The translations under genes were made by a program, and so were the position numbers. A stretch of 64,000 nucleotides of DNA from Corallium rubrum (taxonomy: Eukaryota > Cnidaria > Anthozoa > Scleralcyonacea > Coralliidae): the NCBI GenBank assembly GCA_964035015.1, contig OZ035998.1, positions 25,196,810 through 25,260,809 on the forward strand. Reading direction: 5' to 3'. Below, piece after piece: positions 30,114 through 64,000 of this stretch (positions are counted from its first letter, which is position 1; each line of letters starts with the position of its first letter). Under the pieces are notes generated by a model, which was not told where the DNA came from, made no database searches, and saw nothing but the letters and a program-made list of their open reading frames with translations.

Positions 30114-31267
30114 AGTAGATGCCCCCTCCCCCCTATACAGTGTCCAAAGGGATACCGCCTCATTAATATTCAGTGTGACTCACGCATGACTCACGCATGA
30201 CTCACGCAAGGAATTAAATTTTTCAAGGAATTAAAGAGAAATTAGTAGACACACATATTTTTTATCTGAAACCTTGTTTCGAGGAATTTAGAGAGTTTTG
30301 AACAGCCTAAAGCCGGTTTTTCACTAGGTGACTTTTTTCGCGCGAAGCGACGTTTTCTTTTGTCTCATGAGCTCTGAGCTGGAACAAATGAGAAATTGAA
30401 TTCGAACAAAAGAAAGTCACTTCGTGCGAAAAAGATCGCCTAGTGGAAAACCGGCTTAAGTGTCTGAATTGGCAGAGATAATGTATACACTTGGATTAAT
30501 AGCATATCATGAATATTATATTTTTGATACCTAAATATTCAAATAGAGTAAATCATCCCAGAATTATCGCTAACTAAACCCTAGTTTGTGAGCGAGGAAA
30601 TCGTAGGAGGATAGAATGAGGAATCACTTCGAGAAGTCATGAAAAGAACGATTTTAAGTGTCGAAATATAAAGGCAAAGCGATTTGTTGCTTTGAAAGCG
30701 TTGCTACAAGGGTGTTCCAGGTTCGATAGGTTCTTATTTATCCTGAGTGCACGTGCAGGAAACAAAAGAGCAACTCACTAGGGGTCATTAACAGGATTAA
30801 GCGCTTGGGCAAGTCTAGTCGAGAAGGTCATTAACAGTGTTACCATAGAGAAGCCGCGTCGCATCCTTCATTCGTCTCAGGCTCCTTTGGGACCCGCTAC
30901 TGTTACTCAACCCCCCGTGTAATACGTCATAAGGGATATAGCTTTCCGATTAATTCCCAAAGTTACAAATGTTTGACAAACGGTGACTTTCACGTTTGGC
31001 GTTTCTGGAGTATACACCTCCTATTTTAAGTCTTTAGGCGTTATGATAATATTTCGTTTGTATTCTTTCAATGATTTGGTGGCTCTTAAAAGATTGTAAT
31101 TTTTAAAATGTGATTTGTTTAAAGAAACGTTCTTATAATAAGACTAAATAGCGAAATAAAGTTTCAAAAATATAGAATTTCATATTTACCATCACACAAA
31201 GCTCCTAATATTTACAAACACGCAAAAGTTAAAATCCATAAGTATCGAAATTATTTACAATCACTCG
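30114..31267 (+). mobile_element. Older Polinton-like element (copy A), left-terminal part
   Basis: It starts with AGTAGATGCCCCC and aligns to the start of the intact element at 38353 (AGTAGTGATACCCCCCC). Shared blocks continue to ATTATTTACAATCACTCG at 31267: AAGGGATRCCGCCTCATTAA, TTTTTTATCTGAAACCTTGT, GCACGTGCAGGA and TACACCTCCTATTTTAAGTC. Part of the subterminal region corresponding to about 38400-38880 is missing. Many point differences show that it is older than the intact copy. Confidence 0.82.
30311..30456. mobile_element. MITE with 3-bp TAA duplication (Harbinger-like) inside copy A
   Basis: Termini AGCCGGTTTTTCACTAGG and CCTAGTGGAAAACCGGCT are inverted repeats. TAA flanks both sides (30308-30310 and 30457-30459). 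The intact copy keeps the empty site (AACAGCGTAAGTGTCTG near 38963), so this is an insertion of 146 bp. Confidence 0.8.
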
Positions 31268-31667: not shown

Positions 31668-32827
31668 ATGCCTCGCCATACAAAGAACAGTTCACAGAGT
31701 GTGGCGGGTTACGAGTTTAACCCTGACAGCTTGTCGAGCTCGACAAGTCGCCTGTTTCCACTGCGACCAGTTCAGCTGCTGGTAGTTCGTCGGATTCTCT
31801 ACCCTCTACAAATCCACCCTCCCCGTCAAGTGATCTTGTTAACCACGTCGTCCGGGCTTTACAAGGTACCATTTCTCAACTCGTCGAGACCGCTATTGAT
31901 TCCCGTTTTCCACCTTCGTCTACAGCGTTGCCTTTAACCTCCCCTCCAGTTTCGTCCAGCAATGATCTGCCTTATTCAGCGCTCCCCGTTGATGCACCAA
32001 CTCTCTCGTCAACATCACTGGCCAACATTGCTGAGAATACCGTTAATTTTGCCAACCTGGGTGGTACACTTCCTCATGCAACAGCTTCGAACATCGTTTC
32101 AACAACAGACCCGACGTCCTCTGTTACTTGTATGGTTAGTTCTTCAACCAGAGGTAGGCTCGTTCCTTCGTTTATCAATACTTTTGCTGCGCCTTGTACT
32201 AGTATGGTTTGGTCCTCTACCAGTTCTCCCCTTCCAACCTTGGCTGCCTCGTCTTCGTCCTCTCCAATAAGCCCTAGTTTAGGTGCGTGGATGAATCAGC
32301 CTATTTGTTCGTTGCCTTTTGTCGTTGGACCTGGTTATGCCCCGGTTCCTACTAAGACAGTTACCGCTATTGTGACAGGCAAATTTATCAACCTCTCTGA
32401 CCTCCTCCCCGAGAATGCTAGTGTCATCGACGAAGTAAACGAACCGCAGTTGCTTCTGGACGGTCGTTTAGTCTTAACCGGTCCTTCAAAAAAGCCGCAT
32501 AAAGAGATTGTTGATATAGTGTCTTGGGTCGAAGCCTTTACGATCTTTAGTAGCGTTTTGTGCGCGCATGTCCCAGATCGTTGGAGAGATTTATCCTCCT
32601 ATAAATTGCTTATACTCCGCACATATCGTCATTTCCTCGGGAATGCTTGGTTGCGTTATGACAAAGCATTCAGGCAGCATGCTGCGGCTACCAAACTATC
32701 CGATTGGTCACAATTGAACGCTCAGTTGTTTAACTTCCACACTGCTGGTTCGTCCTCCAGATCTTTAGCAGTCCGCCTGGCCTCGTTGCGTTCTGAGCCT
32801 GAGGCCCACGGCGTTGTGTCGGTTTAA
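31668..32827 (+). pseudogene. DIRS gag-like region
   Basis: An open frame at 31668-31937 overlaps a longer one at 31928-32827 (299 codons), so one shift separates them. The Ser/Thr/Pro-rich N-terminal part is typical of DIRS gag. The C-terminal half (GKFINLSDLLPENASV, IVDIVSWVEAFTIFSSVL, YKLLILRTYRHFLGNAWLRYD) matches the conserved gag block of animal DIRS elements. No zinc knuckle is visible before the stop at 32825-32827, and a Cys-rich remnant seems to follow out of frame at 32835-32880. Confidence 0.7.
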
Positions 32828-33065
32828 GCATTCATGCTCTAGATGTTTAGGACCGCACCGATCAGTTGAATGCACCGTTACATCGCAGCCGAGTTTTCAT
32901 GCCTTTGTCCCGAGTAAGAAGCGGCGTTTTTGAGAATATTTGACTATTGTTGTGAGTCGCTTTTGACCTTCCCATTGTTGGGTTGTAGGCTTGCGTTGGT
33001 TGGGGTTCAGCCTTAGTTTCGCTTAGTCTAGCTAATCTTTATTTTTTTTAGGCGCCCTGCCTCCG

Positions 33066-34634
33066 GTGTCACGGGTTTCCCCACTTAATTTGCAACAGTT
33101 GACTACTGAGCTACAACTACATCCGGACCGCTTGAAGGTGGATTATGTTCTCAACGGCATTGCTCGTGCTTTTGATATTGGGCTCAACCCCTCGTTTCCT
33201 CTGACTTCAGCACGTAAGAACAAAGCTTCAGCCTATGAGCACCATGAGATTGTGGATGCCTACTTAAATAATGAAGTCGCCTTGGGTCGGGTCGCAGGTC
33301 CGTTTCATAATCCTCCAGTTGCGGATTTACACGTTAGCGGTGTCGGTGTTATCCCGAAAGTTGGTCAGCCAGGAAAGTGGCGGTTGATTTTGGATCTTTC
33401 CTCCCCACATGGGTTTAGTGTTAATGATGGTATTGATCCAGAACTGTTTTCCCTTCAGTACATTAAGTTCGATGATGTAGTCAGGATGGTTACCGCACTT
33501 GGTCGGGGGGCTTTGATGGCCAAGTTCGACGTTCAAAGTGCTTATCGGAATGTAGCGGTCCTACCGTCCCACCGGCATTTGCTTGGCATGAAATGGCGAG
33601 GCAAATTTTACGTTGATCTCACCTTACCGTTTGGCTTATGGATTTTCGCACTGCAACTACGCTATTCCGGATCTTTTGCATTATCTCAATGATTTCGTAA
33701 CCGCTGGTCCTCCGCAGTCGTCCCTCTGTGCTCGTAATTTAGCAGTTGCTTCGTCGGTCTGTGAGAAATTAGGTTTACCTTTACACCCCAGTAAATCTGT
33801 AGGTCCCACCACGTGTCTAATTGTTCTCGGCATCGAGCTTGATTCAGTCCACCAGATCGCCCGCCTACCTGGGGCCAAACTTGCTGCTCTCAATCAACTC
33901 CTCGTTGAATGGAGGCAGCGCAAATGGTGCACGAGGACGCAGCTAGAATCCCTAATCTCCACCACGCGTGCCTTTGGCCGCGTCGTTTGGCCGCGTCGTT
34001 TGGCCGGGACGTACCTTTCTACGCCGGATGATCAATTTGCTTTGCGCATTCCGCAGTCGTAATCATCCGATTCGTCTTAACGTAGAATTTCGGCGTGATC
34101 TTCAGTGGTGGTGTGATTTTGTTGAGGAATGGAATGGTATCAATTTCCTCCTCCTCCCAGGGCTCTTTCCATTGGCTGATCTACATGTTACCTCGGACGC
34201 GGCCGGATCTATCGGTTACGATGCTGTTTATCAGCAGCAGTGGTTTAATCACAAGTGGTTACCATCTCAGGTCCCACTGTCCATCGCCTATAAAGAGTTT
34301 TTTTCCTGTTGTGATAGCCGCTCATTTGTGGGGTTCTCAGTGGGCTCTTCTACGCGTTTGCTTTCATCTGGATAATTTGTCTGTTGTTCATATCCTGAAT
34401 TCCCGCACCTCGAGGGATTATCATATCATGCACCTCTTGCGTTCCCTCCTTGGGGTAGCCGCTCGCTTCAACTTTACTTTTGAGGCTCAACATATCCCGG
34501 GCCTAGACAATCCCGTTGCTGACGCACTTTCCCGTTTTAATTGGCAGGCGTTCCACCAACTCGTACCCGACTGTGCTCCATTGCCAATCCCAATTCCGGA
34601 CTGGCTCTTGGACCGACTGGATCCCGCGAATTAG
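33066..34634 (+). pseudogene. DIRS reverse transcriptase and RNase H, frameshifted, active-site change
   Basis: RT blocks read VGVIPKVGQPGKWRLILDLS, GRGALMAKFDVQSAYRNV, RHLLGMKWRGKFYVDLTLPFGL and, after a deletion near 33640, HYLNDFVTAG at about 33675-33704. The usual YxDD there is YLND, so the first catalytic Asp is Asn. GIELDSVHQIARLP and WCTRTQLESLI follow. A tandem duplication of GCCGCGTCGTTTG near 33978-34002 shifts the frame. RNase H blocks (HVTSDAAGSIGYDAV, FHLDNLSVVHIL, HIPGLDNPVADALSR) end at 34634. Several lesions make it non-functional. Confidence 0.83.
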
Positions 34635-35577
34635 AACTACATTGTCAAAATTACATGAAACACGGCTTGGCGTCGTCGACCCACAGGACGTACTCGTCTG
34701 CCCAACGGTCGTTTTTACATTTCTGCCGTGCTACCAATCGAGTAAACACTAACGGCTCCCCGCTCCCAGTTACCGAATGGACGCTGTGTCTTTATGCTAC
34801 GTGGTTGGCCGCGGATGTTAAACCTGCTACAATCAAAGTCTATCTCTCTGCAGTCCGAGCTCTGCATATTGAACACGCTTTTGGTGATCCTTTGAAATAT
34901 TGCCTTCGTCTACAACGCGTTATCAAAGGTATTAAGCGGTGCAAGGGTACTTCGCCTGATAAACGTTTGCCTATCACACCGGATATCCTACGTGCTATTT
35001 ACTCTCGCCTTGATTCTGCGGTTACGACGACATTTTATTCTGGGCTGCTTGTTGTTTGGCGTATTTCGGCTTTCTACGATCTTCAGAGTTTACCCTGCCT
35101 AGTGGCGCCAGCTTCTCTTCAGCTCTTCATCTCTCCGTGAATGACATTACCGTTGACCGTGTTTTTAACCCGGCGTGTATCCAAGTCCGAATCAAAGTGT
35201 CAAAAACCGACCCGTTTCGCCAAGGTTGTGTCATTACACTTGGGATAGGTCACCCACCGTTATGCCCCGTCGAAGCCTTGTTAAATTACCTGGATCGTCG
35301 TGGTGGTGCCTCTGGTTCTCTATTTATTCGATCTAATGGTCTCCCACTTACACGTACTTTCTTCACCGAGCGTCTACGCAAGTTGTTAGAGGCAGCTGGT
35401 GTTACTGGCCATTTTAGGAGCCACAGTTTTCGAATTGGTGCGGCTACGTCGGCGGCTTTAGCGGGGGTCCCGGAGCACCTGATCCAAACTTTGGGACGGT
35501 GGACTAGCACCGCCTACTTATCCTACATACGGACTCCTCGCACTTTGTTATCTAACATAGCAAAAATAATTTGCTAA
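34541..35577 (+). pseudogene. DIRS tyrosine recombinase, one frameshift
   Basis: The N-terminal core-binding part (SSTHRTYSSAQRSFLHFC, VKPATIKVYLSAVRALH) is in the frame from 34541. A one-base shift near 35055 moves to AYFGFLRSSEF (first catalytic Arg), then HSFRIGAATSAALAG (His-x-x-Arg) and LGRWTSTAYLSYIRTP with the nucleophile Tyr, ending at 35577. All catalytic residues are visible. It overlaps the RNase H frame, as is common in DIRS. Its role is to insert the circular DNA intermediate by site-specific recombination, hence no target duplication. Confidence 0.85.
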
Positions 35578-36516: not shown

Positions 36517-36975
36517 GTTTATTACGGTTGTATATCCGATATATGCTAAATATCTCACAGTGTACATAAAAATCCGCTGCATGTCAGTAGGGCAAAGTGA
36601 ATAAATCAAAGTTGATTACGAATACTAGATTGAGGAGATGTATTTGAGAGTCCAAAACCGTTGTGTAAACACGGAAGGGTTTGCTGTACTCGTAAAGTCA
36701 ATCGAGAAGTCGCGAGTATGAGGAGTCGAATGGAGAAACTGTAAGAACGTAAGGTACAGACGAAATATTATTTGTCTATGGAATGGCTGAGTGCAATGTT
36801 ACCAATATTTGTATAAGTCCATGTACACTATTGATATTAAGGACTCATTAGCAATTTAAACAAAAGAACGAGTCTGGACGAGCCTGGGCGACGTCAGAGC
36901 TTAGACAAAGAAATCCTAATTAATATGCTTATTCACCGCGTCGGTTTTCTCGGCGTATCATTTGCTTACTAATTT
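36517..36975 (+). mobile_element. Older Polinton-like element (copy A), second part
   Basis: Resumes homology to 40127-40583 of the intact element (TATTACGGTTGTATATCC, ACATAAAAATCCGCTGC, GAACGAGTCTGGACGAGCC, GGCGTATCATTTGCTTAC). It ends with CTAATTT at 36969-36975, which is repeated at 55384-55390, where copy A continues. Confidence 0.82.
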
Positions 36976-37016
36976 GTAATGTGGCTAAAAACAGACTTGC
37001 ACCAGGCTAAAAATAG

Positions 37017-38346: not shown

Positions 38347-38399
38347 CAGGTTAGTAGTGATACCCCCCCATATAGGGACCAAAGGGATGCCGCCTCATT

Positions 38400-38820
38400 A
38401 AATATTCAGCTTATTATTTATTCATTCTCATGCTCCTTTGCGACCCTCTAACCCTAATCTCGTTACGTCATTATGTCTCGTGCTCCTATATGACCCCCTA
38501 ACCCTAATCTCACTCAACCCCCCGTTATTCACTACGTCATATTCACCTTATTATTTATTCATTCTCAGACTCCTTTAGGATAGTCTAACCCTAACCCCCT
38601 TTCCCTGGCTTGTTGCTGAACCCCCGGTTTTTATTACGTCATAACTGACTCGCGCTCTTCCGAAACCCCCTAGCCCTAGATGTTACTTAACCCCCCGTCA
38701 TTCCCGATTGGTCTCCGACTGATTTCCGAAGTTAGGTCATTATCAAAAGACGCTAGACTTATTTCTTTATAACTAATAGAAACCAACTTTCATTTAAACC
38801 CTTAACCCTACTTATAGCCA
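38400..38820. repeat. Subterminal repeats with telomere-like CTAACCCTAA motifs (left arm)
   Basis: Degenerate repeats of about 100 bp contain TTATTTATTCATTCTCA, GACTCCTTT or TGCTCCTTT, CTAACCCTAATCTC and ACTCAACCCCCCGT, with TACGTCAT between. They are mirrored at about 48358-48778. Confidence 0.8.
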
Positions 38821-40568
38821 ACACTTGTGGGACACGTAAACGCACGGAGCATGCGTACAGTAAACTTTAACAAAATAGACGTTCTTCACAAGGAACTAAA
38901 GAGAAATTGATAGAGGCACTTTATATTTTTTATCTGAAACCTTGTCTGGAGGATTATAGAGAGTTCTGAACAGCGTAAGTGTCTGAATTGGCAGAGAGAA
39001 CTGCTCTGGTCAAACCTGAATATTATTTGAATAATATGGAGACTTTGAATATTATATTAGTCAGAACCTAAATGACCAAACAGTCTTATACACGTTTGGT
39101 GGCAATAAGTGTTAACAATTTTAGAGAGTTATCGTTTACTTTGGCCTAGTTTGTAGAGGAACGAAACAGAAATGGATAGAGGCACTTTATATTTTTTTGT
39201 CTTAAACTTGGTTTGGAGGAATATAGCGGGTTTTTGGTTAAGTAATCCGAGTGTTATTTTCGAAGAGATGAATGTTGACAGTTTTGGTCGAATTATTGCC
39301 TATCTAACCTTAGTCTATAACCTACTAGTGATTCCTTGGATGAAGAAACAGTTCGAGAAGTCGTAAGAAGACACAAATCAATTCGAAAAGCGAAGAGCAA
39401 AGACTTGTCCATATATAACTGAGATACATCATGGTTACTAGGCTTTCTCTTTATAAGTGAGGAAATTGTAGGAAGATAGAATGAAGAATCACTTCGAGAA
39501 ATCGTGAAAAGAACGATTTTAAGTGTCGATATATAAAGGCAAAGCAGTTTATTACTTTGAAAGCGTTGCTACGCTTTCTGTTACTAAGTGTGATATTTGC
39601 ATATTTATCCTCAGTGCACGTGCAGGAGACAAAAGAAAAAACTCATTAGGGGTCATTAAGAGGATTAAGCGCTTAGGCAAGTCTAGGCGATGTCATTAGC
39701 AGTGTTACCATAGCGTCCTTCATTCGTCTCAGGCTCCTTTGGGACCCTCTACTATTACTCAGACCCCCGTGTAATACGTCATAACCGATAGCTCTCCGAT
39801 TAATTCCCGAAGTTCCAAATGTTTGACAAACGGTGTCTTTCATGTGTGGGGTCTCTGGAGTATACACCTCCTATTTTAAGTCTTTAGGCATTATGAGAAT
39901 ATTTCGTTTGTATTCTTTCAATGACTTGGTGGCTCTTAAAAGCTTGTAATTTTTAAAATGTGATTTGTTTAAAGAAACATGTTTTTATAATAAGACTAAA
40001 TAACGAAATAAAGTTTCAAAAATATATAATTTCATATTTACCATCACACAAAGCTCCTAATATTTACAAACAACGCAAAAGTTAAATCCATAAGTATCGG
40101 AATTATTTACAATCACTCGCTATCTATTACGGTTGTATATCCAATATATGTTAAATATCTCACAGTGTACATAAAAATCCATTACCTGTCAGTAGGACAA
40201 AGTGAATAAATCAAAATTGATTACTAATACTTAGATTGAGGAGATGTCTTTGGGAGTCCAAAACCGTTGTGTGAACACGGAACGGTTTGCCGTACTCGTA
40301 AGTCAAACGAGAAGTCGCGCGAGTATGAGGAATCGAATCGAGAAACTGTAAGAACGTAAGATACAGACGAAATATTATTTGTCTATGGAATGGTTGAGTG
40401 CAATGTTGCCAATATTTGTCTAAGTCCATGTACACTAATGATGTTAATGGCTCATTAGCAATTTAAACAAAAGAACGAGTCTGGGCGAGTCTGAGCGACG
40501 TCAGAGCTTAGACAAAGAAATCCTAATTAATATGCTTATTCACGGCGTCGGTTTTCTCGGCGTATCAT

Positions 40569-41087
40569 TTGCTTACTATTTGCTGTTGGAGTAAGACCGC
40601 AGAGATGGAGGGTTTATATGAAAAATTGTTTTCAATGTTCGAAGATATTTACAATGAAACTTTGTGGGAAGAATATTCGAAGCTTTGTCGTGAAAAGTGC
40701 AATGGTTGTAGGACTAACCATCCTAGTCAGAAGCAACATAGTTGCCTAACAGATGATGAGCAACGGAGGTGGTGCTATGAAGAGACCAGGACAAACGTCG
40801 ACGAACGAATCTGGATAGAGTTCAACGAAGCGGGAGAGGCGTTGAAATTACGAAATCAAAGAGACTCTCAAAAAACTTCAGAGACAATGGTCGAGTCGAA
40901 GGAAATTGACGACTCGCCAAATATTCTTTCTATATCTGTTCTGTTTAGCTGTCCATTAAAGTATCTGTACGAAGTAAAAGACACAGGTGTAAAATTTACG
41001 AGTACGATAAATAATCCTCGGGAGGCTTACGAGGAGTATCTTCTTGAAAAGTCTAGAAACTTAACGACGAAAAGCAATCTGAACTAA
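40569..41087 (+). CDS. Polinton-like 172-aa Cys-rich protein (left arm copy)
   Basis: A 172-codon frame; translation may start at the second Met (MEGLYEKLFSMFEDIY, 40605), because that is where similarity to copy A at 55414 begins. The N-terminal part is helical and acidic, then comes a Cys/His cluster (CREKCNGCRTNHPSQKQHSC) that could bind zinc. The C-terminal part (CPLKYLYEVKDTGVKF, NPREAYEEYLLEKSRN) is conserved with copy A. I do not recognise a named family. The mirrored gene at 46091-46609 encodes the same protein. It is transcribed from the terminus towards the centre, converging on the minus-strand C2H2 and ATPase genes. Confidence 0.6.
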   Translation: MLTICCWSKTAEMEGLYEKLFSMFEDIYNETLWEEYSKLCREKCNGCRTNHPSQKQHSCLTDDEQRRWCYEETRTNVDERIWIEFNEAGEALKLRNQRDSQKTSETMVESKEIDDSPNILSISVLFSCPLKYLYEVKDTGVKFTSTINNPREAYEEYLLEKSRNLTTKSNLN

Positions 41088-41327
41088 TGCTATATGTGTT
41101 GTGAGAACATTATCGAGTTAATCCAAAGCTAAATTATGTTTTAAGTTAAAAAAATTACTTGAACTATATAGTGTGTAAGAAAGATGTGTAGACCTGAAGA
41201 AAAATTCATAAAGACATACGAGCAACATTATAGTTCTTTGTAGTTTATTTTCATATTTATAACAAATTACAGTGTGCAAATTGACAGCTAATTATTTACA
41301 TAAACTGTCCTGCGTTTACGATTTCTT

Positions 41328-41774
41328 CTAGCGCACCCACTTCTTAGAGATATCGTTTGTTTCTCTGTTGTCAAAGCACTGCTCGCTCTTTATGGGGAAT
41401 TTTGATATTTTCCGGGGTTTTTTGCGTTGTTTATTATTTACGGACTCCCCATGCTGCTCTCTTAGATAATTATTGAAGTTTGTTGCCATTTCCTCTTGTC
41501 TCTTTATAATGCTTTTCAAAGTTTTTCCATATGTAGTTCTGTGCTGTCTGCGATAGGTTCTTTACTCTGTACAGGAACACATATTCCACTTTTACTCCAT
41601 TTTAGCCAATTTAGCGCGTTCTTTGATATCCATGTGATGTACTTGGTCAAGATGATTTGCTAGCCTTGCAAGATTAGTGCTTCCGCACCCGAAGACAGGA
41701 CAGTTTCTACGTGTGCGACCCATGTTTAGTTGTTTACTCGAGCAGTAACAGAAAGCATTTGACATTTTTGGCAT
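41328..41774 (-). pseudogene. C2H2 zinc-finger/coiled protein (left arm copy, frameshifted)
   Basis: Starts at 41774 with a single C2H2-type finger (CPVFGCGSTNLARLANHLDQVH, with C-x4-C and H-x4-H), followed by DIKERAKLAKME and a stop. The rest (KSIIKRQEEMATNFNNYLRE, then a basic KQRKKPRKISKF and a DISKKWVR end at 41328) continues in another frame. This copy has one base less in GGAAAAAC than the right arm. Probably a DNA-binding or virion-associated basic protein; function not known. Confidence 0.5.
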
Positions 41775-42257
41775 GTTAGATGCTTTTATTAGGCCCTTTT
41801 AGGCCTTATTTGGCCTATTTTGGCCCGTTTAGGCCTTTTGGCCCGTTCAAAGATACCCCCATCATCCCTGGGGCACCGCCCCCAAAGATACTACCAATAC
41901 CCCTAGGGTGCCCCCAAACATATCCCCATCACCCCTGGTAACTTATACATTTAACCTGTACCAAAGGAATATCAGAAAGACATATACATTATTTGTAAAT
42001 ACTTTATTGAACTTCAGCATAGTACAGAAGATAATGTGTCAACGATTCACCAGTAACTTTAATTCTTATAATTGGTGTCATTCCAATACTATGGCGTTTA
42101 GATTGATTGTAGGAGTACACTAGTTTTTTGTAATACTGGTTTCTTTCGTTTGATGAAATCTAAACATATATTCAAAATGCACCGTCCTGTATAGCCTTTA
42201 ATAAACCATTATCAGTATGTTTCAATGTCGCTTTTCTCAGGTATTCAGCACTTATTT

Positions 42258-43075
42258 TCATACCCGGGGTTGATATACATAATGTGTATCAGTCGGAAAT
42301 ATCCCTGATCTTACTCGGATTTCATCGGGACATGTCGGCGTGAGATCGACAAACAGGTAAGAATACGGGTCTTTGGTTGCCATCTGGTAGGCTTGCTGGA
42401 AAAACTTTGTGTTGTCGGGATACAACTGTTTGGCTAGATGAGTTACTTGACTTGCATCACGAACATTTTTTGTTAGGACAAAGTAACTAGCGTTGAGAGA
42501 GATGGTACGATGGTCTTTGCTTTGATGAAATAAGTTTTGCACAATATAAATCACGCTGAGATTACCATGGTGCGATTTCTTCGTGAACAGCTTGGCAATA
42601 ATCGTATCTTTTTCTCCCATCATGTCATCAATGATAAATAGATTTCTTATTTGGGGATTAATACTATCCAATATAGATTCGGATAAACCTTGCACAAACT
42701 GAATCCCAGGAATAAGAAGTTCCATTTTAGCAAACGTGTCTTGGTACTCAGAATAAAAATAAATTATATTTTCTGGGACAGGGTCGATCATGATTTGGGC
42801 GTTGGCTAACAATTCCTTGACAAAGGTTGTCTTCCCAGTCTTGGTCCCCCAGAGACCAAGAGCCCAAAGGGATGTGTTAATTGTATGGAGTATGTATTTT
42901 TGTTGTCTTGGTAATTCGATGCGGTTCCATCAAATGGCGAATGCTTAAATGTAGAATCAGTAGACATCGTTTGAATTGGCCGATCTCCCCCATGCAGGAC
43001 CTTTATGTGGCGTTGTAAATTAAATTGTCTTGAAAAGCTCTTTCCGCAAATATTACAAGCGCTAGGCATGTTCAC
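42258..43075 (-). pseudogene. C2H2-finger/packaging ATPase fusion (left arm copy, one-base frameshift)
   Basis: Same gene as 44100-44918. The G run encoding the start of Walker A has five G instead of six (about 42846-42850, complement), so the frame breaks into 42806-43075 (finger and leader) and 42258-42812 (ATPase body). The loss lies in a homopolymer, so a sequencing or assembly error is as likely as a real mutation. Everything else appears identical to the right-arm gene. Confidence 0.75.
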
Positions 43076-43219
43076 ACAACAACTCTCAAATTACTTGTGA
43101 AAATGTCCGGGAGAAAAGTACGATTATATCCTTGAGTTTCTTCTCTAATGCATGTGGGATATCAAAACGAACCAACTCGCAGCTGAACGTCACTTGGACG
43201 TTACTTAGACGCCGCCTCT

Positions 43220-43955
43220 AAATGAATAACTCATGAGTTACTCATGAATAAATGAGTAACTCATGAGTAAATGAGTAACTCATTTACTCGTGAGTTACTC
43301 ATTTACTCATGAGTAACTCACGAGTTGCTCATTTACTCATGAGTAACTCACGAGTTACTCATTTACTCATGAGTAACTCGTGAGTTACTCATTTACTCAT
43401 GAGTAACTCATTTACTCATGAGTAACTCGTGAGTTACTCATTTACTCATGAGTAACTCGTGAGTTACTCATTTACTCATGAGTTGTTACTCATTTACTCA
43501 TGAGTAAATGAGCAACTCACGAGTTACTCATTTACTCATGAGTAACTCGTGAGTTACTCATTTACTCATGAGTTACTCATTTACTCATGAGTAAATGAGT
43601 AACTCATGAGTAAATGAGTAACTCACGAGTTACTCATGAGTAAATGAGTAACTCGTGAGTTGCTCATTTACTCATGAGTAAATGAGTAACAACTCATGAG
43701 TAAATGAGTAACTCACGAGTTACTCATGAGTAAATGAGTAACTCACGAGTTACTCATGAGTAAATGAGTTACTCATGAGTAAATGAGTAACTCACGAGTT
43801 ACTCATGAGTAAATGAGTAACTCGTGAGTTACTCATGAGTAAATGAGCAACTCGTGAGTTACTCATGAGTAAATGAGTAACTCACGAGTAAATGAGTAAC
43901 TCATTTATTCATGAGTTACTCATTTATTCATGAGTAACTCATGAGTTATTCATTT
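43220..43955. repeat. Central palindromic satellite of the Polinton-like element
   Basis: About 735 bp built almost wholly from ATGAGTAAATGAGTAACTC and its complement. Nearly every unit is itself palindromic (ACTCATGAGT). The dyad of the whole element falls at about 43587/43588 on a CATG with no spacer. Confidence 0.95.
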
Positions 43956-44099
43956 AGAGGCGGCGTCTAAGTAACGTCCAAGTGACGTTCAGCTGCGAGT
44001 TGGTTCGTTTTGATATCCCACATGCATTAGAGAAGAAACTCAAGGATATAATCGTACTTTTCTCCCGGACATTTTCACAAGTAATTTGAGAGTTGTTGT

Positions 44100-44918
44100 G
44101 TGAACATGCCTAGCGCTTGTAATATTTGCGGAAAGAGCTTTTCAAGACAATTTAATTTACAACGCCACATAAAGGTCCTGCATGGGGGAGATCGGCCAAT
44201 TCAAACGATGTCTACTGATTCTACATTTAAGCATTCGCCATTTGATGGAACCGCATCGAATTACCAAGACAACAAAAATACATACTCCATACAATTAACA
44301 CATCCCTTTGGGCTCTTGGTCTCTGGGGGGACCAAGACTGGGAAGACAACCTTTGTCAAGGAATTGTTAGCCAACGCCCAAATCATGATCGACCCTGTCC
44401 CAGAAAATATAATTTATTTTTATTCTGAGTACCAAGACACGTTTGCTAAAATGGAACTTCTTATTCCTGGGATTCAGTTTGTGCAAGGTTTATCCGAATC
44501 TATATTGGATAGTATTAATCCCCAAATAAGAAATCTATTTATCATTGATGACATGATGGGAGAAAAAGATACGATTATTGCCAAGCTGTTCACGAAGAAA
44601 TCGCACCATGGTAATCTCAGCGTGATTTATATTGTGCAAAACTTATTTCATCAAAGCAAAGACCATCGTACCATCTCTCTCAACGCTAGTTACTTTGTCC
44701 TAACAAAAAATGTTCGTGATGCAAGTCAAGTAACTCATCTAGCCAAACAGTTGTATCCCGACAACACAAAGTTTTTCCAGCAAGCCTACCAGATGGCAAC
44801 CAAAGACCCGTATTCTTACCTGTTTGTCGATCTCACGCCGACATGTCCCGATGAAATCCGAGTAAGATCAGGGATATTTCCGACTGATACACATTATGTA
44901 TATCAACCCCGGGTATGA
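44100..44918 (+). CDS. Polinton-like packaging ATPase with an N-terminal C2H2 finger, 272 aa
   Basis: Residues 7-28 form a C2H2 finger (C7-x2-C10-x12-H23-x4-H28). Walker A is GGTKTGKTT (about 76-84) and Walker B NLFIIDD (about 145-151). A downstream VIYIVQNLFHQSKDHRT block with a polar sensor Gln/Asn follows. This is the layout of the FtsK/HerA (A32-like) genome-packaging ATPase found in Polintons and related dsDNA viruses, which pumps DNA into capsids. ATPases of this group are usually about 200-250 aa without the finger, so the fusion is notable. The gene starts about 145 bp from the central satellite and reads outward; the mirror gene reads the other way, so the two are divergent about the centre. 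Confidence 0.82.
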   Translation: MNMPSACNICGKSFSRQFNLQRHIKVLHGGDRPIQTMSTDSTFKHSPFDGTASNYQDNKNTYSIQLTHPFGLLVSGGTKTGKTTFVKELLANAQIMIDPVPENIIYFYSEYQDTFAKMELLIPGIQFVQGLSESILDSINPQIRNLFIIDDMMGEKDTIIAKLFTKKSHHGNLSVIYIVQNLFHQSKDHRTISLNASYFVLTKNVRDASQVTHLAKQLYPDNTKFFQQAYQMATKDPYSYLFVDLTPTCPDEIRVRSGIFPTDTHYVYQPRV

Positions 44919-45402
44919 AAATAAGTGCTGAATACCTGAGAAAAGCGACATTGAAACATACTGATAATGGTTTATTAAAGGCTATACAGGACGGTGCATT
45001 TTGAATATATGTTTAGATTTCATCAAACGAAAGAAACCAGTATTACAAAAAACTAGTGTACTCCTACAATCAATCTAAACGCCATAGTATTGGAATGACA
45101 CCAATTATAAGAATTAAAGTTACTGGTGAATCGTTGACACATTATCTTCTGTACTATGCTGAAGTTCAATAAAGTATTTACAAATAATGTATATGTCTTT
45201 CTGATATTCCTTTGGTACAGGTTAAATGTATAAGTTACCAGGGGTGATGGGGATATGTTTGGGGGCACCCTAGGGGTATTGGTAGTATCTTTGGGGGCGG
45301 TGCCCCAGGGATGATGGGGGTATCTTTGAACGGGCCAAAAAGGCCTAAACGGGCCAAAATAGGCCAAATAAGGCCTAAAAGGGCCTAATAAAAGCATCTA
45401 AC

Positions 45403-45850
45403 ATGCCAAAAATGTCAAATGCTTTCTGTTACTGCTCGAGTAAACAACTAAACATGGGTCGCACACGTAGAAACTGTCCTGTCTTCGGGTGCGGAAGCAC
45501 TAATCTTGCAAGGCTAGCAAATCATCTTGACCAAGTACATCACATGGATATCAAAGAACGCGCTAAATTGGCTAAAATGGAGTAAAAGTGGAATATGTGT
45601 TCCTGTACAGAGTAAAGAACCTATCGCAGACAGCACAGAACTACATATGGAGAAAACTTTGAAAAGCATTATAAAGAGACAAGAGGAAATGGCAACAAAC
45701 TTCAATAATTATCTAAGAGAGCAGCATGGGGAGTCCGTAAATAATAAACAACGCAAAAAACCCCGGAAAATATCAAAATTCCCCATAAAGAGCGAGCAGT
45801 GCTTTGACAACAGAGAAACAAACGATATCTCTAAGAAGTGGGTGCGCTAG
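45403..45850 (+). pseudogene. C2H2 zinc-finger/coiled protein (right arm copy)
   Basis: Mirror of 41328-41774. The finger frame (45403-45585) stops after AKLAKME. An overlapping frame (45527-45850, 107 codons) carries KSIIKRQEEMATNFNNYLRE and the basic tail. A single frameshift, a ribosomal shift or a small intron would join them. In copy A the corresponding frame runs through this junction (DIKERAKWLRWSKIGIYVP), which favours a shift here. Confidence 0.5.
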
Positions 45851-46090
45851 AAGAAATCGTAAACGCAGGACAGTTTATGTAAATAATTAGCTGTCAATTT
45901 GCACACTGTAATTTGTTATAAATATGAAAATAAACTACAAAGAACTATAATGTTGCTCGTATGTCTTTATGAATTTTTCTTCAGGTCTACACATCTTTCT
46001 TACACACTATATAGTTCAAGTAATTTTTTTAACTTAAAACATAATTTAGCTTTGGATTAACTCGATAATGTTCTCACAACACATATAGCA

Positions 46091-46609
46091 TTAGTTCAGA
46101 TTGCTTTTCGTCGTTAAGTTTCTAGACTTTTCAAGAAGATACTCCTCGTAAGCCTCCCGAGGATTATTTATCGTACTCGTAAATTTTACACCTGTGTCTT
46201 TTACTTCGTACAGATACTTTAATGGACAGCTAAACAGAACAGATATAGAAAGAATATTTGGCGAGTCGTCAATTTCCTTCGACTCGACCATTGTCTCTGA
46301 AGTTTTTTGAGAGTCTCTTTGATTTCGTAATTTCAACGCCTCTCCCGCTTCGTTGAACTCTATCCAGATTCGTTCGTCGACGTTTGTCCTGGTCTCTTCA
46401 TAGCACCACCTCCGTTGCTCATCATCTGTTAGGCAACTATGTTGCTTCTGACTAGGATGGTTAGTCCTACAACCATTGCACTTTTCACGACAAAGCTTCG
46501 AATATTCTTCCCACAAAGTTTCATTGTAAATATCTTCGAACATTGAAAACAATTTTTCATATAAACCCTCCATCTCTGCGGTCTTACTCCAACAGCAAAT
46601 AGTAAGCAA
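46091..46609 (-). CDS. Polinton-like 172-aa Cys-rich protein (right arm copy)
   Basis: Mirror of 40569-41087, and the predicted protein is the same throughout. Identity of the two copies and survival of the frame imply recent origin or ongoing arm-to-arm correction. No family was recognised; the same Cys/His cluster suggests metal binding. Confidence 0.6.
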   Translation of the reverse strand: MLTICCWSKTAEMEGLYEKLFSMFEDIYNETLWEEYSKLCREKCNGCRTNHPSQKQHSCLTDDEQRRWCYEETRTNVDERIWIEFNEAGEALKLRNQRDSQKTSETMVESKEIDDSPNILSISVLFSCPLKYLYEVKDTGVKFTSTINNPREAYEEYLLEKSRNLTTKSNLN

Positions 46610-48831
46610 ATGATACGCCGAGAAAACCGACGCCGTGAATAAGCATATTAATTAGGATTTCTTTGTCTAAGCTCTGACGTCGCTCAGACTCGCCCAGACT
46701 CGTTCTTTTGTTTAAATTGCTAATGAGCCATTAACATCATTAGTGTACATGGACTTAGACAAATATTGGCAACATTGCACTCAACCATTCCATAGACAAA
46801 TAATATTTCGTCTGTATCTTACGTTCTTACAGTTTCTCGATTCGATTCCTCATACTCGCGCGACTTCTCGTTTGACTTACGAGTACGGCAAACCGTTCCG
46901 TGTTCACACAACGGTTTTGGACTCCCAAAGACATCTCCTCAATCTAAGTATTAGTAATCAATTTTGATTTATTCACTTTGTCCTACTGACAGGTAATGGA
47001 TTTTTATGTACACTGTGAGATATTTAACATATATTGGATATACAACCGTAATAGATAGCGAGTGATTGTAAATAATTCCGATACTTATGGATTTAACTTT
47101 TGCGTTGTTTGTAAATATTAGGAGCTTTGTGTGATGGTAAATATGAAATTATATATTTTTGAAACTTTATTTCGTTATTTAGTCTTATTATAAAAACATG
47201 TTTCTTTAAACAAATCACATTTTAAAAATTACAAGCTTTTAAGAGCCACCAAGTCATTGAAAGAATACAAACGAAATATTCTCATAATGCCTAAAGACTT
47301 AAAATAGGAGGTGTATACTCCAGAGACCCCACACATGAAAGACACCGTTTGTCAAACATTTGGAACTTCGGGAATTAATCGGAGAGCTATCGGTTATGAC
47401 GTATTACACGGGGGTCTGAGTAATAGTAGAGGGTCCCAAAGGAGCCTGAGACGAATGAAGGACGCTATGGTAACACTGCTAATGACATCGCCTAGACTTG
47501 CCTAAGCGCTTAATCCTCTTAATGACCCCTAATGAGTTTTTTCTTTTGTCTCCTGCACGTGCACTGAGGATAAATATGCAAATATCACACTTAGTAACAG
47601 AAAGCGTAGCAACGCTTTCAAAGTAATAAACTGCTTTGCCTTTATATATCGACACTTAAAATCGTTCTTTTCACGATTTCTCGAAGTGATTCTTCATTCT
47701 ATCTTCCTACAATTTCCTCACTTATAAAGAGAAAGCCTAGTAACCATGATGTATCTCAGTTATATATGGACAAGTCTTTGCTCTTCGCTTTTCGAATTGA
47801 TTTGTGTCTTCTTACGACTTCTCGAACTGTTTCTTCATCCAAGGAATCACTAGTAGGTTATAGACTAAGGTTAGATAGGCAATAATTCGACCAAAACTGT
47901 CAACATTCATCTCTTCGAAAATAACACTCGGATTACTTAACCAAAAACCCGCTATATTCCTCCAAACCAAGTTTAAGACAAAAAAATATAAAGTGCCTCT
48001 ATCCATTTCTGTTTCGTTCCTCTACAAACTAGGCCAAAGTAAACGATAACTCTCTAAAATTGTTAACACTTATTGCCACCAAACGTGTATAAGACTGTTT
48101 GGTCATTTAGGTTCTGACTAATATAATATTCAAAGTCTCCATATTATTCAAATAATATTCAGGTTTGACCAGAGCAGTTCTCTCTGCCAATTCAGACACT
48201 TACGCTGTTCAGAACTCTCTATAATCCTCCAGACAAGGTTTCAGATAAAAAATATAAAGTGCCTCTATCAATTTCTCTTTAGTTCCTTGTGAAGAACGTC
48301 TATTTTGTTAAAGTTTACTGTACGCATGCTCCGTGCGTTTACGTGTCCCACAAGTGTTGGCTATAAGTAGGGTTAAGGGTTTAAATGAAAGTTGGTTTCT
48401 ATTAGTTGTAAAGAAATAAGTCTAGCGTCTTTTGATAATGACCTAACTTCGGAAATCAGTCGGAGACCAATCGGGAATGACGGGGGGTTAAGTAACATCT
48501 AGGGCTAGGGGGTTTCGGAAGAGCGCGAGTCAGTTATGACGTAATAAAAACCGGGGGTTCAGCAACAAGCCAGGGAAAGGGGGTTAGGGTTAGACTATCC
48601 TAAAGGAGTCTGAGAATGAATAAATAATAAGGTGAATATGACGTAGTGAATAACGGGGGGTTGAGTGAGATTAGGGTTAGGGGGTCATATAGGAGCACGA
48701 GACATAATGACGTAACGAGATTAGGGTTAGAGGGTCGCAAAGGAGCATGAGAATGAATAAATAATAAGCTGAATATTTAATGAGGCGGCATCCCTTTGGT
48801 CCCTATATGGGGGGGTATCACTACTCAGGTT

Positions 48832-51000
<2,169 letters not shown>

Positions 51001-51096
51001 TCGCTCAAGCGGACGTGTTTGAGTTCGCTCCCCGTTTTAAAAATTTAATTAAATTTTTCTACTTCTGTCCGCCGCCTTCTGTCTGAAGATATTTAC

Positions 51097-55185: not shown

Positions 55186-55405
55186 GTTTATCGGAATCTC
55201 GCAACAATGAAAACATGCTTCACATGATTGATCGGCGAGTCCCCAAAGATATTTTAACTAGTGCGTGTATTCCGTAGGGAATACAACCTTGACAGATAGC
55301 GTATATCATATTACCATAATCATAATGACGTAAACGCAGTGTCGCTATTTTTAGCCTGGTGCAGTCTGCTTTGAGCCGCATGTCTAATTTGCTGTTGGAG
55401 TAAGA

Positions 55406-56080
55406 CCGCAGAGATGGAGGGTTTATATGAAAAATTGATTTCAATGTTCGAAGCTATTTACAAGGGAAGGCTTCTAGGACAGCGTCGGCCACGGTTGAAA
55501 ATCCAAATATTACCAGGGTTAAGTCACGTTGGCCTGAAAAACAGAGAAAAATCTTCTCGACGTTTCGAGCGAAGGCCCTTCGTCAGGAGAAATTAGAAAA
55601 CCAGTTTACCATTAGTAAACCAATGGAACTTTGTGGGAAGAATACAATGGAACTTTGTGGGAAGAATATTCGAAGCTTGTCGTGAAAAGTGCAATGGTTG
55701 TAGGACCAACCATCCTAGTCAGAAACAACACAGTTGCCTAACAGATGATGAGCAATGGAGATTGTGCTACGAAGAGACCAGGACAAACGTCGACGAGCGA
55801 ATCTGGATAGAGTTCAACGAAGCGGGAGAGGCGTTGAAAGTACGAAATTAAAGAGATCTCAAAAAACTTCAGAGACAATGGTCGAGCCGAAGGAAATTGA
55901 CGACTCGCCAAATATTCTTTCTATATCTGTTCTGTGTTTAGCTGTCCATTGAAGTATCTGTACGAAGTAAAAGACACTGGTGTAAAATTTACGAGTACGA
56001 TAAAGAATCCTCGGGAGGCTTACGAGGAGTATCTTCTTGAAAAGTCTAGAAACTTATCGAATAAAAGCAATCTGAACTAA
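55406..56080 (+). pseudogene. Copy A version of the Cys-rich 172-aa protein gene
   Basis: The start MEGLYEKLISMFEAIYK at 55414 is cut by an insertion at about 55458-55620, which is followed by a duplicated CAATGGAACTTTGTGGGAAG. The Cys cluster (CREKCNGCRTNHPSQKQHSC) and the C-terminal blocks (NPREAYEEYLLEKSRN) persist in shifted frames. Comparison with the intact copy shows what is conserved in the family. Confidence 0.75.
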
Positions 56081-56349
56081 TACTATATGTGTTACGAGAA
56101 CATTATCGAGTTAATCCAAAGTTAAATTATGTTTTAAGTTAAATAAATTACTTGGACTATATAGTGTGTAAGAAAGATGTGTAATTTTATACGTGTGTAA
56201 TTTTATCTGAAGAAATATTAATAAAGACATACGAGCAACATTATAATAGTTCTTTGTAGTTTGTTTTTATTTTTATAACAAATTACAGTGTGCATATTGA
56301 CAGCTAATTATTTACATAAACAATTGTTTTTAAACAAACTGTCCTGCGT

Positions 56350-56700
56350 TTACGGTTTCTTCTAGCGCACCCACTTCTTAGAGATATCGTTTGTTTCTCT
56401 GTTGTTAAAGCACTGCTCGCTATTTATAAGGAATTTTGATATTTTCCGTTTTTTGCCTTGTTTATTATTTACGGACTCCCCATGCTACTCTGTTAGCTAT
56501 TGCCATTTCCTCTTGTCTCCTTATAATGCTTTTCAAAGTTTTCTCCATATTTAGTTCTGTGTTTGCGATATTTTCTTTACTCCGTAAAGGTACATATATT
56601 CCAATTTTACTCCATCTTAGCCATTTAGCGCGTTCTTTGATATCCATGTGATGTACTTGATCAAGATGATTTGCTAGCCTTGAAAGATTAGTGCTTCCAT
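56350..56700 (-). pseudogene. Copy A version of the C2H2/coiled protein gene
   Basis: Minus-strand frame 56647-56465 keeps DIKERAKWLRWSKIGIYVP and EKTLKSIIRRQEEMA. The finger is partly lost by a deletion near 56700, and the C-terminal ISKKWVR region lies near 56370. It shows that the DIKERAK to KRQEEM junction can be read in one frame. Confidence 0.6.
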
Positions 56701-57571
56701 GTTTAGTTGTTTACTCGAGCAATGACAGAAAGCATTTGACAATTTTTGGGGCGTGATAGATGCTTTTATTAGGCCCGTTTAGGCCTTTTGACCCATTCAA
56801 AGGTACTCCCATCGCCCCGGGGGCACCCCCTCAAGATACTACCAATACCCCTGTGGTGCCCCCAAAGATACCCCACCCCCGGGGGCACCCCAAAGATACT
56901 ACCAATACCCCTAGGGTGCCCTCAAAGATTGCTCTTAAAAGAGCCTAGGGGTAACCCCCAAACATCCCTGGGGTACCCCAAATACCCCAGGGGTAACCCC
57001 CAAGCACCCCTGGGGCAATGTGATACGAATGGGAACGTAAAGAGTACTGTCTTACATTCCCTTTAGCCTATGGTTTTGAAAGCTTGACCAATGGTAAGAA
57101 ACAAAGAAAAAAAATTGAGATGTTCCGAGATGTTGTATAGGCAGTTTCAGTGAATGAGTCAAGTTTGCCGCTCTTTTAAATTAACAATTCGGTAATTGAT
57201 CAATCCTTAAGAACACGCCGCACCATCTTCACGCTATATTTTACTATAACATAACTCAACAAGACCTTTTACACGAGAGTTGATAAGCGGTAACTTATAC
57301 ATTTAACCTGTACCAAAGGAATATCAGAAAGCCATATACATTATTTGTAAATACTTTATTGAACTTCAGCATAGTACAGAAGCTAATGTTTCAACGATTC
57401 AACAGTAACTTTAATTTTTAAAATTGGTGTCATTCCAATACTATGGCTTTTGGATTGATTGTAGGAGTACACTAGTTTTTGTAATACTGGTTTCTTTCGT
57501 TTGATGAAATCTAAACATCTATTCAAAATGCACCATATGTCTCAATGTCGCTTTTCTCAGGTATTCAGCAC

Positions 57572-58400
57572 TTATTTTAATACCCGGGGTTGGTATACAT
57601 AATGTGTATCAGTCGGAAATATCCCGGATCTTACTCGGATTTCATCGGGACATGTCGGCGTGGGATCGAAAAACAGGTAAGAATACGGCTCTTTGGTTGC
57701 CATCTGGTAGGCTTGCTGGCAAAACTTTGCGTTGTCGGGATACAACTGTTTGGTAAGATGAGTCACTTGACTAACATCACAAACATTTTTCGTTAGGACA
57801 AAGTAACTAGCTTTGAGAGAGATGGTACGATGGTCTTTGCTTTGATGAAACAAATTTTGCACAATATAAATCACGCTGAGATTACCATGATGGGATTTCT
57901 TTGTGAACAGTTTGGCAATAATCGTGTCTTTTCCACCCATCATGTCATCAATGATAAATAGATTTCTTATTTGGGGTTTGATACTATCCAATACAGATTC
58001 GGATAAACCTGGCACAAGCTGAATCCCAGGAATAAGAAGTTCCATTTTAGCAAACGTGTCTTGGTACTCAGAATAAAAAATAAATTATATTTTATGGTAC
58101 AGGGTCGATCATGATTTGGGCGTTGACTAACAATTCCTTGACAAAGATTGTCTTCGCAGTCTTGGTCCCCCCAGAGACCAAAGGGATGTGTTAATTGTAT
58201 GGAGGATGTCTTTTTGTTGTCTTGGTAATTCGATGCGGTTCCATCAATGGAGAATGCTTAAATGTAGAATCAGTAGACATCGTTTGTATTTGCCGATCTC
58301 CCCCATGCAGGACTTTACGTGGCGTTGTAAATTAAACTGTCTTGAAAAGCTGTTTCCACAAATATTACAAGCGCTAGGCAGTGTGACCAGGTTTTTACAG
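57572..58400 (-). pseudogene. Copy A version of the C2H2/packaging ATPase gene
   Basis: 157 codons (58045-57572) keep Walker B (NLFIIDDMMGGKD) and the VIYIVQNLFHQSKDHRT block. Upstream, Walker A reads GGTKTAKT: the invariant Gly before Lys is Ala. A deletion in the preceding HPFGLL block and a frameshift near 58075 separate it from the finger. The finger coding is itself cut off from its start by the 478-bp insertion at 58379. Confidence 0.8.
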
Positions 58401-58856: not shown

Positions 58857-59060
58857 GCGCTAAGCATGCTCACACAACAACTCTCAAATTACGTGTGAAA
58901 ATTTCTGTGAGAAAAGTAAGATTATAATCTGGGGTTTCTTCTCTAATTTATATGGTATGCCAAAACGAACCAATGCGCATGCGTAGCTGGACGTCACTTG
59001 GACGTTATGAGTAACTCGGGAGTTACTCATGAGTAAATGAGTAACTCATGAGTAACTCAT

Positions 59061-59535: not shown

Positions 59536-59540
59536 TCTTT

Positions 59541-60199
59541 TAAGGTGGCTCCATACAGTTTCTTGAACAATGGAAAATACAAGTTTGAGATTTCAAAACA
59601 CGTGTACAAATAATTCGGAAAAAGAATAAAACTAAATATTATGCATAGTTAAACAGTCTGATAATCAAAAACTGTTACCAAATAAATAGCAGCAGTTGTT
59701 GCTATGGCAACAATGACGTTTCAAAATGGCTGCCAATTACCATTCAAACTAATTTAGTTCGAGAAAATCATTGGTGACCCACAATTTTTTTTCATTAAAA
59801 CTTTTCTTGAAGCATGAGTACTCAATAGGTCGATTTTAAAAAAATTCTGTAGAACGAATAATTTTTTTCCCGGAAAAATCATGTTTGTTAATTTTTAAAT
59901 CTACAGAATTTTTTAAAAATTGGCCTATTGATTATTCATACTTCCGGAAAAATTTTAATGAAAAAAAAATTGGGGGTCACCAAAGTCTTTCTCGAATTAA
60001 ATTAATCTGAAGGGTAATTTTGAAACGTCATGTTGCCATAGCAACAACTGTTGGTATTTATTTGGTAACAGTTTTTGATTGTCAGACTGTTTAACTATGC
60101 GTAACATTTAGTTTTATTCTTTTTCCGAATTGTTTATGCATGTGTTTTGGACTCTTAATCTTGTATTTTCCATATTTCAAGAAACTGTTGCCACCTTAA
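59541..60199. mobile_element. Foldback element with TTAA target duplication
   Basis: Two arms of about 320 bp are inverted repeats (AAGGTGGCTCCATACAGTTTC / GAAACTGTTGCCACCTT at the ends; TGGTAACAGTTTTTGATTGTC and its complement inside). TTAA flanks both ends. The mirror locus at about 56935 keeps the uninterrupted CTCTTTTAAGAGC-like site (in reverse). TTAA points to a piggyBac-type transposase as mobiliser. Confidence 0.8.
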
Positions 60200-60205
60200 G
60201 AGAGT

Positions 60206-61240: not shown

Positions 61241-61251
61241 CCATGTTTACA

Positions 61252-63211: not shown

Positions 63212-63226
63212 ACATTAGGTTATGTT

Positions 63227-63823: not shown

Positions 63824-63826
63824 ACA

Positions 63827-64000
63827 CTAATACTGAATAGACTGAAGCTGACCATTAGCCAGGTTTATTAGCCCATCCGACAGCACGTAAAGGTAGCAGG
63901 TACAGGCAGTGGTCCCGGCACTTTTCTCAACCTCAATAAGTATTCCATTCTGTGTATCAGTTAGCTTCACACCCTGACCCTGTACTCTCTTTAACGCTGT
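63827..64000 (-). CDS. C-terminal part of an unidentified virus-like ORF (runs off the window)
   Basis: Open on the minus strand from the window edge to TAG at 63827-63829. The visible residues (RVQGQGVKLTDTQNGILIEV, CYLYVLSDGLINLANGQL) look beta-rich, with alternating hydrophobic positions. The stop is three nt before the ATPase start, consistent with one polycistronic or tightly packed viral unit. It is too short to identify. Confidence 0.5.
   Translation of the reverse strand, partial: TALKRVQGQGVKLTDTQNGILIEVEKSAGTTACTCYLYVLSDGLINLANGQLQSIQY

Follow-up and report, generated by a model that had tools for sequence, protein, structure and literature searches.

Polintons, also called Mavericks, are the closest described relatives of a mobile element found in Corallium rubrum (assembly GCA_964035015.1, contig OZ035998.1). 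The element, referred to here as the focal element, is a 10,473-bp palindrome located at positions 38353-48825 of the analysed stretch of DNA (the window; 64,000 nucleotides, positions 25,196,810 to 25,260,809 of the forward strand). According to the excerpt of PMC8097293 used here, vertebrate Mavericks carry an (AGT)2//(ACT)2 end motif with a 6-bp target-site duplication, and intact copies measure 12.7-24.6 kb with terminal inverted repeats (TIRs) of 46-1,447 bp. The focal element shares with them the (AGT)2//(ACT)2 ends, the 6-bp duplication, a packaging-type ATPase and a collinear end with an ORF172-like frame (ORF, open reading frame). It differs in having no match for POLB, INT, MCP or protease, which marks it as a derivative rather than an autonomous element, and in being entirely one inverted repeat, with no short-to-moderate TIRs around a unique interior.

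Some left-end defective molecules of adenovirus are palindromic, with two left ends. The adenovirus genome is linear and protein-primed, and incomplete particles hold DNA of its left (packaging) end (PMC5033970, in excerpt). Similarly, the focal element consists of two copies of one end placed head to head, with no polymerase-side match, but it is integrated, multi-copy and inherited in Polinton-like DNA, and its origin in protein-primed replication is inferred. Foldback/Galileo elements have long, internally repetitive inverted repeats (PMC3573991), as does the focal element. The Polinton ends, the 6-bp duplication and the ATPase gene in the arms set the latter apart (a P-type transposase was not searched for), and membership in this group is unlikely because of the 6-bp duplication and the Polinton ends. 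Teratorn also has long inverted repeats with internal TIRs, but it is a piggyBac-type transposon of 41-182 kb with a unique region and a herpesvirus relation. No palindromic Polinton family was described in the titles or abstract openings found in the PMC open-licence literature, which is not proof of absence from print.

The focal element is probably a member of a helper-dependent, non-autonomous family derived from Polintons/Mavericks, whose genomes would be inverted dimers made by fold-back copying. The observations behind this reading are the palindrome itself with its Polinton-type termini, duplications of 6 bp at numerous loci, the lack of detectable POLB, INT, MCP and protease, the presence of full-size elements that share the ends, and the concerted evolution of the two arms.

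The palindrome and its genes

A self-inverted comparison of the window gave 99.885% identity between the focal element and its own reverse complement, and this 5.2-kb inverted match is far beyond chance. Alignment of the arms revealed three substitutions (38770/48408, 43267/43908, 43277/43898) and three one-base indels (near 41525/45652, 41835/45341 and 42845/44330); three further bases that overhang at the artificial mid-cut of the alignment are not counted as arm differences. The arms meet directly, with no unique spacer, at an axis read from the sequence between 43587 and 43588, in TTTACTCA|TGAGTAAA. The initial annotation had described mirror halves without a spacer, and its coordinates were exact. 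The features are as follows.

38347..38352, no strand: left target-site duplication CAGGTT (flank comparison)
38353..43587, plus strand: left arm, 5,235 bp, terminus AGTAGTGATACC (self-inverted match, arm alignment)
40569..41087, plus strand: ORF172 of the left arm (42-amino-acid (aa) match, 40%, to an autonomous Polinton ORF)
42258..43075, minus strand: left-arm ATPase copy, broken into two ORFs by a one-base difference (ORF list, arm alignment)
43219..43956, no strand: central array of self-complementary ATGAGTAACTCATGAGTTACTCAT-type units, holding the axis 43587|43588 (366 of 368 positions pair)
43588..48825, minus strand: right arm, 5,238 bp, mirror copy with end GGTATCACTACT (self-inverted match, arm alignment)
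44100..44918, plus strand: ATPase ORF of the right arm, 272 aa, C2H2 zinc finger and Pox_A32/FtsK-like region, packaging-type (Pfam)
45379..45850, plus strand: Cys/His-bearing frame of the right arm, zinc-finger-like by eye, with an overlapping 107-aa ORF (no Pfam match for the latter)
46091..46609, minus strand: ORF172 of the right arm (no Pfam match)
48821..51008, minus strand: interrupted, decayed long interspersed nuclear element (LINE), the insertion target (ORFs match zf-RVT and RVT_1; the frame continues left of 38347)
48826..48831, no strand: right target-site duplication CAGGTT (flank comparison)

The ends read AGTAGT/ACTACT, and CAGGTT stands on both sides as first reported. Removal of the element plus one CAGGTT also rejoins the LINE as had been claimed: the minus-strand frame that stops at the insertion continues for about 34 codons, counted by eye. 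A 300-nt stretch from the left half of the central array folds as single-stranded DNA at -113.9 kcal/mol, with a z of -22 against 200 shuffles. The LINE sits within an older, interrupted copy of one family arm, present as pieces at 81-97% identity (30128-31267, 36520-36976, 55387-58384 and 58857-59060). This older copy reaches the same array type as the focal element and then a (TC)n run, and no mirrored second arm was found to its right in the window.

In the 272-aa ORF, the C2H2 finger scored above the Pfam cut-off, and the Pox_A32 and FtsK matches were under theirs. Related proteins numbered 652, the top scorers being 84-86% identical over 78% of the query; an informative name was borne by none of the 120 listed, and no relatives were confirmed in IMG/VR scans. 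The ATPase gene and ORF172 are present in both arms; the ATPase frame is open in the right arm only, the left copy being split. ORF172 was matched over 42 aa (40%, E 2e-10) to the ORF beside the integrase of an autonomous Polinton, and no relatives of it were found in Pfam or in the protein collection.

Queries for POLB, INT, PW, MCP and protease gave only weak, chance-level matches in the focal arm, leaving the ATPase and ORF172 as the sole Polinton-type gene matches in the element. The queries were drawn, not every gene from each source, from a Polinton on C12 and from two Polinton contigs, L001 and L004, that were among five loci from a scan of bacterial and archaeal genomes and served as protein yardsticks. 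Pfam backed the POLB and INT labels of L001. The MCP, protease, PW, PX, PY and pV labels of L001 and L004 are presumed from gene order and lack Pfam support, and the labelled MCP of L001 had no Pfam match. Both contigs were binned in metagenome-assembled genomes of bacterial symbionts (of Escarpia and Bathymodiolus) and are probably host DNA.

A 20-aa match to the zinc finger of the L001 POLB (E 0.024) had suggested that the finger preceding the ATPase was a POLB N-terminus fused by deletion. This idea was rejected: ATPases of a group at 76-80% identity mostly align from focal residue 2, and of the 20 unpaired ones in that group, 12 have a scored integrase at a distance of 2.6-10.1 kb, typically around 5.3 kb.

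The mirror family and a helper candidate

The terminal 401 bp of the focal element was used to search the 474-Mb genome, with 40 of 1,611 candidates scored. This gave 49 matches, many of them convergent pairs 5-11 kb apart, and both halves were compared in the 16 other end-pairs of the list (siblings). All 16 had mirrored ends, with the outermost matching piece spanning 0.46-5.2 kb at 97.7-99.8%; inner pieces matched less well in some (down to 91%), and some carried one-arm insertions. Mirror symmetry extended over most of the length in 15 siblings and an exact 6-bp duplication was present in 14, or 15 of 17 elements with the focal one counted. These results agree with the initial annotation, which had read the ends and duplication as Polinton-type and had proposed a genome search for further palindromes with 6-bp duplications. 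The focal arm is common to eight siblings over most of its length; of the remaining eight, one on C18 has its outer and inner parts and seven have mainly the outer part.

The same counts bear on an assembly or library artefact, such as a missed hairpin adapter or an inverted chimera. Inverted chimeras do occur in long-read libraries, and the focal locus is known from the assembly alone. An artefact would mirror the flanks too, however, whereas the flanks here differ, the ends are Polinton termini, 15 of 17 elements have exact duplications and the arms carry element-specific changes, so this explanation is very improbable.

A 31-bp pattern from the array border had 67 forward and 68 reverse matches (135), while the control, the pattern read backwards, had 0 and 0. 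Among the 100 listed of these 135, 43 divergent pairs with spans of 178-1,206 bp take up 86 matches, and the other 14 stand alone; close neighbours among the matches listed are in mirror orientation in 43 of 44 cases. Two of the 43 pairs belong to one nested locus on C15. The genome search with the ATPase (142 scored of 1,709 candidates) gave 116 matches of at least 90% identity, arranged as 41 divergent pairs, no convergent pairs within 5 kb, and 34 singles. Thirteen of these singles (the focal element, five siblings, one on C32 and six by the border pattern) proved in other comparisons to be palindromic or to possess a mirrored border. Two array borders at C258:54318 (+) and 62836 (-) face each other 8.5 kb apart, the opposite of the usual layout. 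Terminal sequence is repeated in direct orientation beside or within the arm at L050 (C8:400211-406500) and at L028/L029 (C20). Of six single-end loci, L046-L051, L050 alone was checked for mirroring, and the remaining five were screened for Polinton proteins.

Full-size elements sharing these termini were also present, as expected of a genome housing a non-autonomous Polinton derivative. The terminal 23-mer, with up to three mismatches, had 228 forward and 258 reverse genome matches (486; control 0 and 0), and the best 100 of the 486 comprise 18 singles and 41 convergent pairs, the pairs measuring 4.7-13.9 kb. An integrase match is contained in four of the 41, all four measuring 13,862-13,868 bp with 0 mismatches in the terminal 23 bp; the other 37 contain none. 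The integrase search covered 113 scored of 1,965 candidates, and 100 of the 113 Polinton integrase matches had no internal stops; the genome thus holds many apparently intact integrases.

One such full-size element, C56, was read in three separate pieces covering 8.1 of 13.9 kb, with the capsid region outside the pieces. It has the target-site duplication GACATC, mirrored ends (a 0.81-kb TIR, 98.5% over an 812-column alignment) and matches to an ORF172-like frame, INT, PX- and PY-like genes, ATPase and POLB. The ORF172-like frame precedes INT at the integrase-side end, the ATPase runs in the opposite direction, and POLB lies beyond it. Gene order and orientation in the focal arm, from the terminus through ORF172 and ATPase to the centre, agree with this layout, and neither the INT-to-PX block nor POLB of C56 matched the arm. 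The focal arm matches both C56 ends over 155 bp at 91-92%, and the ATPases are 90% identical in aa, the match starting at focal residue 62.

On this comparison, the focal arm resembles the integrase-side end of a Polinton of this kind, present twice and joined head to head at the side upstream of the ATPase. It may be a recombinant, because the C56 ATPase match begins at residue 62 and most rows of the 76-80% group at residue 2. Judging from ends and duplications, an autonomous element would mobilise the focal family, and C56 is a candidate for this helper, not a proven parent. The proposal of a left-end dimer gains support from the collinearity of the arm with the integrase-side end, which extends as far as the ATPase, and from the lack of detectable polymerase-side sequence. 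Integration in trans, also proposed at the outset, is supported by the missing POLB, INT, MCP and protease matches together with the existence of elements having the same 23-bp ends and an integrase match. As for an autonomous partner sharing the terminal 300 bp, C56 has INT, POLB and an identical terminal 23 bp, and its close match ends at 155 bp rather than 300 bp.

Codon comparisons suggest selection on the ATPase. The ratio of non-synonymous to synonymous rates (dN/dS) between the focal element and C56 is 0.054, and 11 synonymous versus 5 non-synonymous differences separate the focal copy from the C18 palindrome. Recent selection is not demonstrated, because comparisons with C22, C1_68 and C1_62 gave 0 synonymous and 1, 2 and 2 non-synonymous differences, respectively. 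Part of the older selective history may belong to autonomous ancestors.

Concerted arms and the copying of the palindrome

To follow the two arms, nine full-length elements (18 arm rows) were compared. Arms of one element differed by 0.2-3.5 substitutions per kb and different elements by 0.4-12.9, and arms grouped as sisters in eight of nine elements (local support 0.75-1.0). When columns filled in 16 or more of the 18 rows were counted, 31 element-private substitutions were present in both arms at the mirrored site. In the same columns, variants shared by several elements were concordant in all at 37 sites versus 4 discordant; in strictly ungapped columns, 59 sites were concordant throughout and 45 were discordant in one or more elements. 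C13_11 and C1_87, whose target-site duplications differ, each carry a 243-bp deletion in both arms. Such a concerted pattern would not be expected of arms that replicate as independent duplex parts.

Post-insertion gene conversion between arms of palindromes that replicate as ordinary duplexes would also yield concerted arms. Gene conversion keeps arms alike in Y-chromosome palindromes, and inverted arms that are almost identical and barely separated, if at all, suit it well as substrates. In the two older insertions looked at, however, the arms have drifted apart: those of the palindrome at C12:12.43M are 95.9% alike, with 28 shared changes and 10 and 19 arm-private ones in 911 ATPase-region sites, and those of C13_13.85M are 97.7% alike. 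One-arm substitutions likewise persist in the nine elements, and conversion is accordingly an unlikely explanation. Because the arms of C12:12.43M have diverged, arm equality appears to be set at or before insertion and to decay afterwards.

Equal arms are predicted, too, if every palindrome forms independently out of a Polinton that is asymmetric (ordinary or deleted) and the palindromic form itself does not propagate. The 14 unpaired border places would fit such an origin, as would a second lineage with a different centre (below), which implies that palindromes formed at least twice. This explanation is nevertheless improbable: no ATPase match among the 116 has any of the 113 scored integrase matches within 14 kb, mirror pairing already holds for 86 of the 100 border places listed, and related elements have both-arm features in common, namely the 243-bp deletion and 130 bp from the right array edge shared by the focal element and C25a (by eye). 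With a large family and concerted arms, the palindrome has the look of a form that is passed on rather than of an isolated accident.

Fold-back copying would account for these data. Protein-primed polymerases displace a single strand, as established for adenovirus and phi29. Protein-primed strand-displacement copying by a helper POLB would release such a strand, which would snap back at self-complementary sequence, in the focal lineage the ATGAGTAACTCAT array upstream of the ATPase and in the second lineage short inverted copies on either side of a 38-bp loop. Copying of the snapped-back strand to the terminus would give an inverted dimer bearing the same end twice, both arms being made from one template. 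In later rounds, the displaced strand of the palindrome would form a long hairpin in which the arms are templated on each other and mismatches removed, so that new copies would start with equal arms. The helper integrase would then insert the palindrome with a 6-bp duplication. The model would explain the ends, the centre, the second-lineage loop, the nested palindromes and the concerted arms. It agrees with the panhandle or copy-back origin first suggested, which remains the best mechanism on the evidence, the mechanism itself being inferred.

In the second lineage, whose ATPase is 77% like the focal one, mirror symmetry at 96.9% extends over about 4.03 kb of the 4.05 kb read. The centre of this palindrome is not in its array and has a 38-bp unique loop between ACAATTATT and AATAATTGT (read by eye). 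At the C15 locus the halves of a palindrome are themselves palindromes, and C12_352k has two outward-facing ATPases in each arm. Palindrome formation is therefore recurrent, and centred on self-complementary sequence in the cases seen. In a 78%-identity relative on C82, ARAGORN reported a tRNA-like gene with an odd 4-base anticodon (L055, 839-912) beyond the array upstream of the ATPase.

The centres also bear on stepwise TIR growth, in which end-to-end recombination lengthens the TIRs of an ordinary Polinton until the arms meet. The wide TIR range of vertebrate Mavericks (46-1,447 bp, in the excerpt of PMC8097293) would suit it, as would C23_12.03M, where mirrored ends of 1.5 kb surround an asymmetric centre. 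Centres in self-complementary sequence or in a looped short inverted repeat are predicted by fold-back and not by stepwise growth, which we consider quite improbable.

Several observations weigh against fold-back dimers as the family's form. C23_12.03M is mirrored over its outer 1.5 kb only, and L050, with its terminal sequence in direct orientation, is not mirrored past its array. Two of the 16 siblings (C18_11.20M and C1_83.44M) have no exact duplication, and 3 of the 14 exact duplications (C25, C20, C13_11) fall within short tandem repeats, which makes a match of 6 bp less informative. The arms of C22a, beside its near-twin C1_68, were not resolved as sisters, and 51 substitutions in the nine elements are private to one arm. 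Of seven central arrays tested for pairing, six reach 69-96% (ungapped) and the focal array is the most complete; this fits a fold-back loop and also array rearrangement. C56 may be neither the true helper nor the parent, because only the first 155 bp of the focal terminus are close to it and the focal ATPase zinc finger is outside its match. Finally, no intermediate (hairpin, extrachromosomal dimer or virion) was seen. The best explanation remains that the family genomes are inverted dimers of the Polinton integrase-side end (terminus, ORF172 and ATPase), in which neither the polymerase side nor the capsid/integrase block was detected.

Neighbouring elements and implications for Polintons

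Other mobile DNA was noted in the window. At 60206-64000 there is a possible start of another Polinton-like element (AGTAGTATAGG, by eye), which extends past the window edge and has minus-strand ORFs at 61255-62694 and 62678-63211 (no Pfam match) and 63230-63682 (Pox_A32). It is adjoined by a 668-bp imperfect palindrome at 59536-60203 (81.6%), which resembles a miniature inverted-repeat transposable element. ORFs at 31928-35577 include a phage-integrase-type tyrosine recombinase (35056-35574) and are DIRS-like by eye. Matches to Helitron_like_N, PIF1 helicase and Rep_fac-A_C (just under cut-off) at 7380-10399 and 13275-14462 mark a Helitron/Helentron-like element.

More tentatively, the family may represent inherited, satellite-like defective Polinton genomes that pass through a long hairpin in each replication cycle and keep their packaging ATPase under selection. 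They might be packaged in helper capsids, as endogenous defective-interfering genomes that perhaps hold the helper in check.

To our knowledge, ideas on Polinton replication rest mostly on gene content. A family of inverted dimers that are integrated and have arms evolving in concert would offer a fossil record of Polinton copying that can be read from genomes, and the family predicts strand fold-back sites, one template for both arms and a helper acting in trans. Giant near-perfect palindromes are usually thought unstable; in this genome they are a common, transmitted state of mobile DNA. The family further suggests that defective, satellite-like genomes are a recurrent by-product of Polintons.

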